Origin: Candidatus Sumerlaeota bacterium
GTDB taxonomy: Bacteria > Sumerlaeota > Sumerlaeia > JAFGJS01
Reading direction: 5' to 3'
Assembly: GCA_016928995.1 (NCBI GenBank)
Contig: JAFGJS010000041.1
Span: forward strand, 1-30,926
Length of the DNA: 30,926 bases
The translations under genes were made by a program, and so were the position numbers. Below the pieces are notes generated by a model. That model was given only the letters and a program-made list of their open reading frames with translations, did no database searches and was not told the DNA's origin. Shown here one piece after another: positions 2,771 through 9,861 of this stretch (within the stretch, counting starts at the first letter, position 1; each line of letters begins with the position of its first letter).

Positions 2771-3574
2771 CTATCGCTGCTGGCCGCCCTTCGCCTTTTG
2801 GTGGGAATAGACCGCAGCGGCCGCGTAAAGCAAAGTGGAAACCATCACGATGCAGGCGCCCGTCGGAAGATCGAGCGCATACGATGCGCCGAAGCCGCCC
2901 AGCGTTGACGCGATGCCCAATCCGGCCGCCCAACGCCGCGCCGATGGCATGGACTCGGCCAGTTCAAAAGCCGCCGCTGCGGGATTGGTCAGCAGGGCGT
3001 ACATCAACAGACCGCCGGTGATGTTGAGGTTGATCGTGATGATCAACGCGGCGAGCAGCATGAAAAGCATCAGCAACGGCCATTCATTCAAGCCGCACGA
3101 TCGCGCCGCGCCACGGCTGAACAGCAGCGTGTCGAGCGGACGGCGGCAGAAATACAGAAAAACCAGGAAAGCCGCTCCAAGCAGAAAAAGCAATTTTACA
3201 TCGGACTCTTTGACCAGCAGCATGCTGCCCCACATCAGGCTGTGGAAGGCGCTCATCTCGCCGCCCTTGTGCATGCCGATGCCCAGAAAGGCCAGCCCCA
3301 TGGTGAACGATAGCAGGATGCTGGTGATCACGCCCAAGTCCGAGCGCACATGCGTCGTGGCGATCCATGCCAGTATTCCTCCGGCCAGCACCGCGCCGGC
3401 CAGCGCGCAGGGGAGGAGGGGCCATCCGGCCAGGCTGGCGAACACCGCCCCGGCCATGGCGGCGTGCGCCATGCCGATCCCCAGGAACGGCATGCGCATG
3501 CCCACGATGTAAAGTCCGAGGAGGCCGGAAGAAAATCCGCTGCTCAGCGCCGCCAGAATCCAGAGTTGCATCAT
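2771..3574 (-). CDS. ABC-3 (ZnuB/TroC-type) metal ABC transporter permease
   Basis: A 267-residue inner-membrane permease with eight or nine hydrophobic helices. The sequence near the N-terminus (GMRMPFLGIGMAHAAMAG) and the glycine/alanine-rich helices are typical of the ABC-3 family that imports zinc, manganese or iron. The start at 3574 overlaps the ATPase stop as ATGA, a four-base overlap that implies translational coupling. The reading frame continues 22 codons further upstream, but that extension lies inside the ATPase gene and lacks membrane character. Together with the upstream ATPase and the lipoprotein it forms a complete importer. The metal is not determined; NikR downstream makes nickel or cobalt possible even though the family usually carries zinc or manganese. 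Confidence 0.92.
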   Translation of the reverse strand: MMQLWILAALSSGFSSGLLGLYIVGMRMPFLGIGMAHAAMAGAVFASLAGWPLLPCALAGAVLAGGILAWIATTHVRSDLGVITSILLSFTMGLAFLGIGMHKGGEMSAFHSLMWGSMLLVKESDVKLLFLLGAAFLVFLYFCRRPLDTLLFSRGAARSCGLNEWPLLMLFMLLAALIITINLNITGGLLMYALLTNPAAAAFELAESMPSARRWAAGLGIASTLGGFGASYALDLPTGACIVMVSTLLYAAAAVYSHQKAKGGQQR

Positions 3575-6310: not shown

Positions 6311-7030
6311 CTATACGGGATAATAGACATTGCCATATTTTTCATATTTCCTGATGGCATTCGGCGTGTTTGAATCGCCACAGAGTAATTCGCGAATCCT
6401 TTTCCTGTGCTGCGCATCGATCCGGGTCTGTTCGTTCTTGATCCCCCGATCCGCGAGCAGCCATGTACTGTAATCCGCGCAATCGCCGGACTCAAACGGA
6501 TACAATCGTCCCTGCATGCCGGACGCTTCCAGGCCAGCCGCGAACGGCTTGAGGGAATAGCGGCAAAGCACAAAAATCCCATTGGTGAACCGGCCCTCCT
6601 CCAGCGCGGGACGATACACGTCGAATAGAATATCTTTCGCTGATGTCATGATATAAAAACAGGCCCCGGCCTGCAACGCCTGGGCGCCAAGCTCCCGGAT
6701 CGCGCAGGACTCGCAGCAAGCAGGAACAACCGTTTTTTCCGCATGGAACAGATGCTCCAGATAGCGGCATTCATGATTCGCGCGCCCCGAGAGGCAGGGC
6801 GGATTTATCGGCTTCAGACAGAATCCAACCCCAACGATAGATCGCCTGCCTCTCAGGATCGGCTCCCGCGCATCGCATGGCGCCATTGCAATGGCGCCGT
6901 CTTTCGTGCAATCGCTCCTACTGGAATCGATCAACGCTTTCGCCGTCCGGACAGGATGCGGAGCCGCGATGCACTGGAAGAATCGCCAACCGTATTCCCG
7001 GAACAAACTATGAAAACAGAAACTCAGCAT
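6311..7030 (-). CDS. Cysteine-rich protein of unknown function
   Basis: I do not recognise this 239-residue protein. It has 14 cysteines, including Cys71, Cys79, Cys88, a CCESC motif at 105-109, Cys124, Cys156, Cys184 and Cys217. This spacing would suit a metal or iron-sulfur centre, but no named ferredoxin motif is present. Two conserved-looking blocks are ACCESCAIRELG and FESGDCADYSTWLLADRG. No signal peptide or clear membrane segment is seen. The ATG at 7030 has AAGGAG about 14 bases upstream, which is rather far. Another in-frame Met at residue 49 could be the real start. It begins 51 bases after the creD stop on the same strand, so it may be the last gene of that transcript. Confidence 0.6.
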   Translation of the reverse strand: MLSFCFHSLFREYGWRFFQCIAAPHPVRTAKALIDSSRSDCTKDGAIAMAPCDAREPILRGRRSIVGVGFCLKPINPPCLSGRANHECRYLEHLFHAEKTVVPACCESCAIRELGAQALQAGACFYIMTSAKDILFDVYRPALEEGRFTNGIFVLCRYSLKPFAAGLEASGMQGRLYPFESGDCADYSTWLLADRGIKNEQTRIDAQHRKRIRELLCGDSNTPNAIRKYEKYGNVYYPV

Positions 7031-7081: not shown

Positions 7082-8470
7082 TTATTCCTTTTCCGGTTCC
7101 GGCAAATCCAGGTTGCGCGTGGCGTACATCACGATGCCCAGCACGACGAACAGAGCCGCCGTCCCAAACAGCAGCGAGTAATCCTGCAATTGCAGCACGA
7201 TATACAGATAGGAGTTGATCGTCAGCAAAGCCGCCGCAAGGATCGCCGTCCGCTTGCCGCCCTTCAGCACCTTGAGGCTATAGAGGACGATCAGCAGCAT
7301 CGAGGCAAGAGCGCCGGCCCAATAGGCATACAGAAAGACGATAAACTCGGACAGCGACAACACGGCCAGATAAAACAAGCACAGCGCCGCGCCAACGAGC
7401 AGGTATTGGATCGTGTGGATGCGCAGCGCCGCGAGAACCTCGAACAGAAAGAACGCCGTGAAGACCAACGCGAGAAACAGCACGCCGTATTTGATCGCAC
7501 GCTCCACCATGCGGTAAGTGTCCACCAGCACGATGAAATCCACGCCGAACAGCGAAGGATTGATCGTGCTCGCGTTCAAGACGCCGCCCGATTTTCGATC
7601 AGCGCTTTGCTGCGGATAATTACGGCCATACCAGGTCGTCTCCCATGACGCGCTAAAGCCCTGCTCGCTCACGTCGCGCTGAACCGGCAGGAACGCGCCC
7701 GTGAAGCTCGGATCCGGCCAGGGCGAGGTCAACTTAACACGATTTTGACGGCCCATCGGAGCGAAGCGAAGGCCTTTGCTGCCCTTGAAATCGAGCGTCA
7801 GCTGAAAATCGAGTTTCTTGATGCGCTCCTGCAGATTCGGCAACCGCGCGCTGACGCCGGAATTGTAGCCGTTGAGTTTGCATCCAGGGGTGAGCGCGTA
7901 TGTTTGCTCGCCGATTTGGATTTTAAGCAACTCCTCCGTGCCGCGCAAATCGCTGACCGCCAGCGTCACCTGCGCCTTATCCCACTGCACGTCGCTTTCT
8001 TCGATGCCCAGTTCGGCGAAATCCGGCTCGGTGAAACGCCCGGCAAGATTCAAGCGCCCGCTGTAAACCACCGCTTCATAGATGCCGCGATGCAACTTGC
8101 TCGGTTCGACTTCGCCCTCGATGTTCAATTCCGCCGGCAAGAAGTAGGCGTTCGCAACGCCGGTCTCTTCGACTTCGATCTGTTTCTGCCGGCCATTGAT
8201 GATTTCTTCTTTCCAGGTCTTGAACCGGTATTGATACGGAATCACCAGCACCGGACCGGCGATGACTTGCTCGCCGCCCCAGCTCGTGGTAATTTCACTG
8301 ACGGCCTGATCGCGACGCTGCATCCGCTCATACAGCAACGAGTGGATCATGCGCAACGGGATCAGCATCACGAGAACGAGACAAATCACTCCGGCCAGTT
8401 TGAATGTGTTGGAGTGGTGCTCAAAAAATGATCCAATCATGTTGCCCGGAGATTTCGGCGTCATGTTCAT
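7082..8470 (-). CDS. creD: CreD-family inner-membrane protein
   Basis: A 462-residue member of the CreD (cell envelope integrity) family. One transmembrane helix lies at about residues 24-42, followed by a large periplasmic domain. That domain carries the family features SWGGEQVIAGPVLVIPY and the beta-rich region with LNLAGRFTEPDFAELG. About five or six membrane helices follow at the C-terminus, with FLFEVLAALRIHTIQYLLVG. In enterobacteria creD belongs to the CreBC regulon and affects colicin tolerance and envelope stress; its biochemical role is unknown. The ATG at 8470 has AAAGGA about ten bases upstream. It follows a winged-helix regulator gene by 142 bases, and a promoter-like sequence with an operator-like box lies in that gap. 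Confidence 0.93.
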   Translation of the reverse strand: MNMTPKSPGNMIGSFFEHHSNTFKLAGVICLVLVMLIPLRMIHSLLYERMQRRDQAVSEITTSWGGEQVIAGPVLVIPYQYRFKTWKEEIINGRQKQIEVEETGVANAYFLPAELNIEGEVEPSKLHRGIYEAVVYSGRLNLAGRFTEPDFAELGIEESDVQWDKAQVTLAVSDLRGTEELLKIQIGEQTYALTPGCKLNGYNSGVSARLPNLQERIKKLDFQLTLDFKGSKGLRFAPMGRQNRVKLTSPWPDPSFTGAFLPVQRDVSEQGFSASWETTWYGRNYPQQSADRKSGGVLNASTINPSLFGVDFIVLVDTYRMVERAIKYGVLFLALVFTAFFLFEVLAALRIHTIQYLLVGAALCLFYLAVLSLSEFIVFLYAYWAGALASMLLIVLYSLKVLKGGKRTAILAAALLTINSYLYIVLQLQDYSLLFGTAALFVVLGIVMYATRNLDLPEPEKE

Positions 8471-8562
8471 TGTGCTTGTTTCCTTTCGGCTTGTGCGGGT
8501 GGTTTTACTCTTTCTTTTTTGACCGGAGTTTGTGTTGAAAGTTACATCCGGCCGACCGCGGC

Positions 8563-8594
8563 TTAATAATATCAAGATCTTTGCAAGGCAAAGT
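8563..8594 (-). promoter_or_regulatory. Candidate creD promoter with operator-like box
   Basis: On the minus strand TTGCCT (8586-8591) and TATTAA (8563-8568) are 17 bases apart, a plausible sigma-70 pair, about 93 bases before the creD start. The -35 lies in ACTTTGCCTTGCAAAG (8579-8594). This box contains a perfect 6-base inverted repeat (CTTTGC and GCAAAG) and matches 13 of 16 bases of the box before the operon at 9660-9675. The neighbouring winged-helix regulator is the obvious candidate to bind both. Promoter and operator are inferred from sequence only. Confidence 0.45.
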
Positions 8595-8612
8595 TATAAC
8601 GTAAAAAAATTT

Positions 8613-9011
8613 CTAGGCCGGCGCCCAACCGTCCGAAACGCCTTTGGCCGGTTTCGGCGATTCCTTTTTTGCATCGGCGGCCGCGTCTTGAATGACTTGC
8701 TCCAGTTCCTTCAGATACTCCTGAAAACGCTCCAGCCCCGCTGGCGTGATGCGGCATAAGGTCTGGGGTCGTTTGCGGTGAAATCCCTTCCACACCTCGA
8801 CCAAACCGGCTTCTTCCAGCGCCTGGATGTGGCGGCTCAGGTTGCCGTCGCTCAAAGAGCACAGATCTTTGAGCTGGTTGAACAGCAGCCCCTCGCGATG
8901 ACACGAAAGGGAGGTAAGGATGCCCAGCCGCGCCTTTTCATGCATGATCCGGTCCAGGCCATCATAAGCATAGCGTCCGGATTCCTGCGGTTTTTTATTC
9001 GAATCACTCAC
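8613..9011 (-). CDS. Winged-helix transcriptional regulator
   Basis: A 132-residue regulator with a winged helix-turn-helix at roughly residues 24-90. The recognition region LSDGNLSRHIQALEEAGLVEV and the wing KRPQTLCRITPAGLERFQEYL are typical of the MarR/ArsR-like HTH_34 group. The C-terminal tail is short and charged with no obvious ligand domain. The start is GTG at 9011, which overlaps the end of the upstream membrane protein by eight bases and has GGAG ten bases before it. Such regulators are often encoded beside a small membrane protein and CreD, as here. It probably controls its own operon and creD through the two similar boxes at 9660-9675 and 8579-8594. Confidence 0.88.
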   Translation of the reverse strand: MSDSNKKPQESGRYAYDGLDRIMHEKARLGILTSLSCHREGLLFNQLKDLCSLSDGNLSRHIQALEEAGLVEVWKGFHRKRPQTLCRITPAGLERFQEYLKELEQVIQDAAADAKKESPKPAKGVSDGWAPA

Positions 9012-9618
9012 GATGATTACGCTCCAGATTCCAATAGAGTATCAAGCCGCTGAAGATATAGCCAACGCCAAAGGGAATGCCTGTTTCCCAAGGCGAAAGC
9101 TGGTAAACACCGAGCACGACGATCCGGTGCAGCAGCACGCATCCGCAAAGCAGATAAAACAAAGCCACCCAGCCGATCATCCGCGGCAGAAACGGCTTGG
9201 ATGCAGACAGCCCCAGACCGAACAGCAAAGACCAGATCGCCGGGAGGTAATACATCAAGTCTTTGTTTTCCGCGATTGAAAATGCTGCGGTTACGATCAC
9301 GCCGACAGTCAGGCACGGTGTCAATTGTCCCACCACGGTTTGCGTGCGCTTGCGCTCATGCGGGCTTTCATCCCGGAGATAATTCAACATGACGCCGCCG
9401 GCGGCGATAAAGCAAGAAGCGACAGCGATCAACGTCCAATAAAGCACATAAATCCGGGGGTCCGCGCTGCTCACGACGAAAGGCTGGATCCATGCCGCGA
9501 GGATCGCCAGAATCCCGGTCAGCATGAACGGCGTCGCACGATACCCGCGATACAGCTGGCTTTTCGCCATATGCTCGTGGATTTCCGAAATCTGCTCCAG
9601 CGCCTTGTCGATTCGCAT
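9004..9618 (-). CDS. Six-TM membrane protein of the creD locus
   Basis: A 204-residue protein with a short cytoplasmic N-terminus (MRIDKALEQISEIHEHMAKS) and six hydrophobic segments up to the C-terminus. No catalytic motif is seen, and I do not know its function. It is the first gene of an operon with the winged-helix regulator, which it overlaps by eight bases. The reading frame extends to a GTG at 9660 and an ATG at 9648. A promoter-like -10 at 9644-9649 lies inside that extension, so I favour the ATG at 9618. It may act as a membrane sensor for the regulator, but that is inference from gene order alone. Confidence 0.82.
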   Translation of the reverse strand: MRIDKALEQISEIHEHMAKSQLYRGYRATPFMLTGILAILAAWIQPFVVSSADPRIYVLYWTLIAVASCFIAAGGVMLNYLRDESPHERKRTQTVVGQLTPCLTVGVIVTAAFSIAENKDLMYYLPAIWSLLFGLGLSASKPFLPRMIGWVALFYLLCGCVLLHRIVVLGVYQLSPWETGIPFGVGYIFSGLILYWNLERNHRE

Positions 9619-9643
9619 CTGAGCCGTCCGTTTAGAATAAACA

Positions 9644-9675
9644 AGCATACATGTTTTCACTTTGCAATGTCAAGT
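9644..9675 (-). promoter_or_regulatory. Candidate sigma-70 promoter and operator box of the creD locus
   Basis: On the minus strand a perfect -35 TTGACA (9668-9673) and a -10 TATGCT (9644-9649) are separated by 18 bases. The -35 lies in the 16-base box ACTTGACATTGCAAAG (9660-9675), which closely resembles a second box upstream of creD. A transcript from here would start around 9635-9640, just before the chosen ATG at 9618. A repressor bound at this box would block RNA polymerase. Confidence 0.55.
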
Positions 9676-9744: not shown

Positions 9745-9777
9745 ATCGTGATTTCCAAATTATCGTGATTTCCAAAT
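9745..9777. repeat. Tandem duplication with a 17-base period
   Basis: The 16 bases ATCGTGATTTCCAAAT occur at 9745-9760 and again at 9762-9777, separated by one T. The second copy runs directly into the left arm of the large inverted repeat at 9775. It is non-coding, and may mark the edge of an inserted element. Confidence 0.85.
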
Positions 9778-9861
9778 CAGTACCGCGACTGTCAGGGAGC
9801 GGCCCCGATGGCGCTGCGGTAACGCTTTACGGGCCGCTCCCTGACAGTCGCGGTACTGATT
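9775..9861. repeat. Perfect 31-base inverted repeat (REP/MITE-like hairpin)
   Basis: The arms 9775-9805 and 9831-9861 are exact reverse complements over 31 bases, with a 25-base loop. The core of the left arm is GTACCGCGACTGTCAGGGAG. There is no T-tract on either side, so it is not an ordinary terminator. It lies in the non-coding gap between the fliW end and the creD-locus promoter. The length and perfection suggest a dispersed palindromic repeat, possibly mobilised in trans. An 67-codon frame that runs through it is not credible as a gene. Confidence 0.85.

Follow-up and report, generated by a model that had tools for sequence, protein, structure and literature searches.

The window analysed here, a 30,926-nt stretch of a Candidatus Sumerlaeota contig, contains two copies of one 17-bp dyad, box 1 (O1) and box 2 (O2), and these are real sites and not chance matches. 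They accompany a membrane-protein gene and a winged-helix regulator gene, and the same dyad recurs in the same two places across several phyla. On balance, we favour a two-operator repressor module in which box 2 would serve as a roadblock against read-through into the third gene, which is creD in the window. The features of the module are as follows.

9659..9675, minus strand: box 1 (O1), 17-bp dyad ACTTGACATTGCAAAGT, from its PWM score and the same place in 63 loci
9644..9673, minus strand: promoter of the membrane-protein/regulator operon, with -35 TTGACA (9673-9668) inside box 1, 18 nt, and -10 TATGCT (9649-9644)
9004..9618, minus strand: membrane-protein gene (ATG at 9618), 204 aa, first gene, from profile search and structure model
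8613..9011, minus strand: gene of the winged-helix regulator, HTH_34 (PF13601), 132 aa, second gene, from its Pfam profile
8603..8609, minus strand: T7 tract (coding strand), 3 nt past the regulator stop codon and 8 nt before box 2
8578..8594, minus strand: box 2 (O2), 17-bp dyad ACTTTGCCTTGCAAAGA, from its PWM score and the same place in 50 loci
7082..8503, minus strand: creD (PF06123), 473 aa, third gene, downstream of box 2, from Pfam and NCBIfam profiles

The first-pass annotation had described two 16-base boxes on the minus strand, ACTTGACATTGCAAAG at 9660-9675 and ACTTTGCCTTGCAAAG at 8579-8594. Both positions and the match between them (13/16 identical) were confirmed, and each box proved to be part of a 17-bp dyad. 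A pattern derived from the two boxes themselves, which is an unfair test, gave 5 matches against 2.1 expected. We therefore rely on an independent PWM built from 60 distinct sites only, with Sumerlaeota and their nearest loci left out. This PWM scored box 1 and box 2 at 22.6 and 19.4 bits, while the next best place in the window reached 11.1, and 0 equally good matches were found in 10 Mb of simulated Markov background. The consensus of the dyad, rebuilt from loci in other phyla, was ACTTTGCAWTGCAAAGT. When the window's own genome was searched for further boxes, only these two were convincing, and the other near matches lay in coding sequence or scored low. Changes in the half-sites were often unpaired (C6/A10), a pattern that would be expected for a DNA operator and not for an RNA stem; on this ground, an RNA hairpin was rejected.

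We then assigned the proteins of the module. The membrane-protein and regulator genes overlap by 8 nt. The model of the membrane protein consists of an N-terminal helix and six long helices (mean pLDDT 92.8), and the six long helices are probably membrane-spanning. Profile search placed this protein in no Pfam family, and so gave no SdpI-family match, and a fold search against PDB returned no significant match. The regulator scored 84.6 bits against HTH_34 (PF13601; cut-off 27), which makes it a member of that family. It remained below the cut-off of the ArsR/SmtB profile NF033788 (26.9 bits; cut-off 55) and lay just over that of the broader Pfam ArsR profile PF01022 (26.5 bits; cut-off 22). 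The closest solved sequence and fold was PH1061 of Pyrococcus (1ub9). The third gene product belongs to CreD by both PF06123 (485.8 bits; cut-off 23) and the NCBIfam CreD profile (484.7 bits; cut-off 275). A search of the window's genome found no other CreD or HTH_34 proteins. Separately, 9775-9861 of the window, just upstream of the operon promoter, holds an inverted repeat whose 31-nt arms match perfectly and are separated by 25 nt; it resembles a mobile or REP-type element.

To follow a check suggested in the first-pass annotation, namely whether the box occurs at the regulator locus of related genomes, loci were fetched with the regulator sequence. This yielded 61 loci from Sumerlaeota, Planctomycetes, Acidobacteria, Alphaproteobacteria and others, and the membrane-protein gene adjoined the regulator in all 61. 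The dyad was present before the membrane-protein gene in 63 loci and just after the regulator gene in 50, showing that it is conserved in the same two places across phyla. At PWM >= 14, the 11.9 kb ahead of the membrane gene held 56 sites and the 14.5 kb following the regulator stop held 49, compared with 8 in the other 348 kb. The model behind this count was derived from these loci themselves; for the window, the independent model agreed. Several of the 8 sites elsewhere lay ~600 nt further upstream. Such a displaced box 1, ~600 nt further upstream, was seen in six Rhodopirellula-type loci (L051, L053, L071, L077, L080 and L085); in five of them the gap holds an ORF from one related small family, to which no function was assigned. 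Across whole genomes, boxes with up to 2 mismatches numbered ~0 to 4 per genome and in many genomes lay chiefly at the module locus. Within the class, a box match was found in 8/9 genomes with a close regulator; matches in 7 of the 30 other genomes were mostly degenerate and arose at about the rate of a reversed control pattern. This conservation strongly supports the predicted sharing of operators, autoregulation and control of the gene behind box 2.

Box 1 has the character of a promoter operator. Its internal -35 is perfect (TTGACA), and a TTGACA -35 lies within the box 1 dyad in most Sumerlaeota loci. In most other phyla, TTGAC stands ~24 nt before box 1 and the -10 (TATACT) runs into the first bases of the dyad. 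Box 1 overlaps the -35 or the -10 in most of the 63 loci, as expected of an autoregulatory repressor operon. An upstream -35 with at most 1 mismatch was found at 35/63 box 1 sites but at only 2/49 box 2 sites. The earlier claim that each box overlaps a -35 with a suitable -10 holds for box 1 (TTGACA-18-TATGCT) and is doubtful for box 2, whose candidate promoter TTGCCT-17-TATTAA is weak (4/6 and 4/6) and was absent from a stricter promoter scan. The autoregulation proposed earlier is supported, but the first gene after box 1 encodes the membrane protein and the regulator gene comes second, and box 1 is predicted to control the membrane-protein/regulator operon, not the regulator gene directly.

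Box 2 differs from box 1 in its surroundings. Among the related loci, no conserved -35 or -10 was found at box 2; promoter-like sequences near it, a point against the roadblock reading, were above background (17/50 against 11.5%). In 16/17 uppS loci (Alphaproteobacteria), box 2 contains an ATG at +8 that is in frame with uppS, and in locus L034 the creD ribosome-binding site begins ~10 nt after box 2; these loci leave no room for a transcription start. Box 2 is thus an operator downstream of a promoter, without a conserved promoter of its own, which is the arrangement of a roadblock operator.

A second property of box 2 is the T-run that precedes it. Runs of at least six T occurred before box 2 in 39/50 loci, with 31 ending exactly at -9, against 0.07 of 50 expected by random placement. 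The run is 6-8 nt long and occupies about -15 to -9, even though box 2 stands anywhere between 15 and 104 nt from the regulator stop codon when all loci are counted. The 7-mer at -15..-9 contained 6-7 T at 41/50 box 2 sites and at 0/63 box 1 sites, and 11/50 box 2 sites had no run of six or more. The 50 loci are related and should not be counted as independent; clustering at 75% identity gives 18 groups, 13 of which have the T-run in at least one member. We also searched 148 Planctomycetia genomes with the spacing left open at 3-15 nt. This revealed three new loci with T6-N9-CTTTG beside the same gene pair; further matches beside the pair had spacings of 8 and 13 nt, and some matches lacked the pair. 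One out-of-sample locus, L121, has 13 nt from the T-run to CTTTG, and the out-of-sample pattern search in Alphaproteobacteria gave too few matches to inform. An operator that lacks a promoter of its own, follows the regulator gene and has a U-tract at a constant distance upstream fits a roadblock that stops read-through.

We propose that the operon, which consists of the membrane protein, a winged-helix repressor and a variable third gene, is governed by one repressor acting at two copies of the same operator. The HTH_34 protein is predicted to bind the boxes, to repress and to roadblock. At O1, the repressor would cover the promoter and switch off the whole operon, its own gene included. At O2, it would form a roadblock for RNA polymerase arriving from upstream; the polymerase would stall once its active site had reached the T7 tract or its vicinity, and would backtrack or be released, leaving the third gene (here creD) off. 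T7 may serve as a release signal, as a pause or in some other way. Upon release of the repressor, initiation and read-through would both rise and the third gene would be expressed. Release would probably be achieved by the six-helix membrane partner, a role we infer, which may sense a membrane or lipid-carrier signal and capture the repressor.

A more specific and tentative version, to which we give slightly less than even weight, is that T7-N8-O2 constitutes a repressor-gated terminator. Bound repressor would position the polymerase on the U-tract and cause release without a hairpin, and this one spacing would have been kept across several phyla while one guarded gene was repeatedly exchanged for another (ispH2, uppS2, radical SAM, creD, beta-lactamase-like, ferritin-like). 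With dead EcoRI as the roadblock, E. coli polymerase halts 14 nt upstream of the EcoRI site (PMC5499547). Applied to O2, this distance falls at the upstream end of T7, in favour of the roadblock model; it would, however, place the RNA 3' end where the tract begins and not where it ends, a point against that model.

The main rival is the model of the first-pass annotation, in which both boxes are ordinary promoter operators and box 2 overlaps the third gene's own promoter; T7 would then be the intrinsic terminator of the regulator operon. A passable hairpin lies ahead of the T-run in 17/39 loci, with a mean hairpin energy of -8.9 before the T-run against -7.2 upstream, and for some of these loci an ordinary terminator is possible; stable stems precede the T-runs in L050, L058, L060, L079 and L081. 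The weak TTGCCT-17-TATTAA of the window also points this way, as does a distal site in L107 that does resemble a promoter operator (TATACT). However, 22/39 T-runs have no strong stem. A terminator has no need of a constant 8-nt distance to an operator, box 2 lacks a conserved -35 or -10, and the start codons of uppS and the creD ribosome-binding site of L034 occupy the place where such a promoter would act. We consider this model unlikely, at less than half the weight of the roadblock model.

It is more doubtful still that T7 is a DNA-shape element, an A-tract bend aiding repressor binding at box 2 or looping between O1 and O2. The fixed spacing agrees with such a role, and so does the distance between the operators, which is ~1 kb in most loci and ~1.08 kb in the window. 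Yet box 1 has no T-run, and at box 2 the side and the strand orientation of the run never change, a constancy that would be unnecessary for a mere aid to binding. Finally, binding of HTH_34 to the boxes is itself a prediction, but it is very improbable that another factor binds them or that they act in RNA, with HTH_34 a mere neighbour, as the dyad tracks the regulator/membrane-protein pair across phyla and the unpaired half-site changes speak against a stem.

Under the roadblock reading, the gene behind box 2 is the guarded target, and we examined its identity. An IspH-like gene follows box 2 in one cluster of 25 loci and a UppS-type prenyltransferase gene in at least 15 loci; other third genes encode a radical SAM protein, a beta-lactamase-like protein, CreD and others. 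The IspH and UppS targets are usually second copies, with another copy elsewhere in the genome. IspH and UppS each occur once in the window's own genome (G000:C36:15191-16192 and G000:C80:24976-25641), unlike in the genomes where they are module targets. Distal boxes precede a farnesyl-diphosphate-synthase-type gene in L094 and, by eye, a DgkA-like gene in L107. In the Sumerlaeota relative L106, a quinone-oxidoreductase-like gene is preceded by two strong distal boxes 32 bp apart (2992-3040). By eye, a box in L093 and one in L122 precede genes of one ferritin-like protein family, in one case distally and in the other as the third gene.

CreD itself was found in 2/39 genomes of the class, one of them holding a C-terminal piece only, and 16 gammaproteobacterial genomes with creD showed no such regulator beside creD and no box pair. 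Two gammaproteobacterial creD loci hold a single box-like match, both inside ORFs. Of the autoregulation and creD circuit originally proposed, conservation upholds the sharing of operators, the autoregulation and the control of whatever gene follows box 2, and creD as a general target is ruled out by these class and gammaproteobacterial genomes. Thus, creD is one exchangeable target. In the nearest relative genome, G003 (L032 / L131), box 2 is followed by an ORF of 346 aa, and of creD only a C-terminal piece is present; the gene after the window's creD (6311-7030) has a likely relative there. The module shares its target gene family, creD, with CreBC control. The cre tag of the CreBC regulon is TTCACN6TTCAC, and 0 matches with up to 1 mismatch were found in the window, which gives no sign of membership in that regulon.

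Comparison with known systems showed partial likenesses. Roadblocking by repressors is known for LacI, PurR, GalR and ArsR in E. coli and for CcpA and CodY in B. subtilis (PMC10310618). There, as predicted here, RNA polymerase in elongation is stopped by a repressor that sits on the DNA beyond the promoter, but the operator of the module lies between two genes of one operon and at a fixed spacing to a T7 tract. Of the few papers found on repressor roadblocks together with U-tract termination, none described such a T7-operator element in its title or abstract. In B. subtilis SdpR/SdpI, an autorepressor is captured by a polytopic membrane protein (PMC1626106). The module likewise pairs a small predicted autorepressor with a multi-pass membrane protein in a two-gene operon, but its gene order is reversed, its membrane protein has no SdpI match in Pfam and capture is putative; by analogy, the membrane partner may be a sensor that captures the regulator. 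The modelled regulator has a winged helix and a long C-terminal helix, as in PH1061 (1ub9) and PadR/MarR-type regulators; unlike the module, PH1061 is listed as a hypothetical protein and its entry gives no operator or membrane partner. B. subtilis SigM/YhdLK responds to a falling carrier-lipid pool (PMC11081497). It resembles the module in having a membrane-bound sensor (a predicted role here) and a response tied to undecaprenyl phosphate, in whose pathway ispH and uppS act, but it uses sigma and anti-sigma factors where the module has a repressor with operators. With SigM as precedent, a carrier-lipid signal is our guess from the target genes.

We found no paper describing the module in the open-access literature searched and none under PF13601 or HTH_34. 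Among the matches listed for CTTTGCAAAG, none was related by title, and a search on IspH control in Planctomycetes gave nothing relevant. The module is likely a widespread but unstudied bacterial gene switch, with the boxes as its predicted binding sites. Its targets, including second IspH and UppS copies, a farnesyl-diphosphate-synthase-type enzyme, a DgkA-like protein and CreD, suggest that the module responds to a lack of isoprenoids or carrier lipid. Should the T7-operator element function in the proposed way, it would provide compact repressor-dependent termination that could be easily tested and moved to laboratory bacteria. The HTH_34 family gains a predicted operator, partner and targets at once, in phyla with little-studied gene control.
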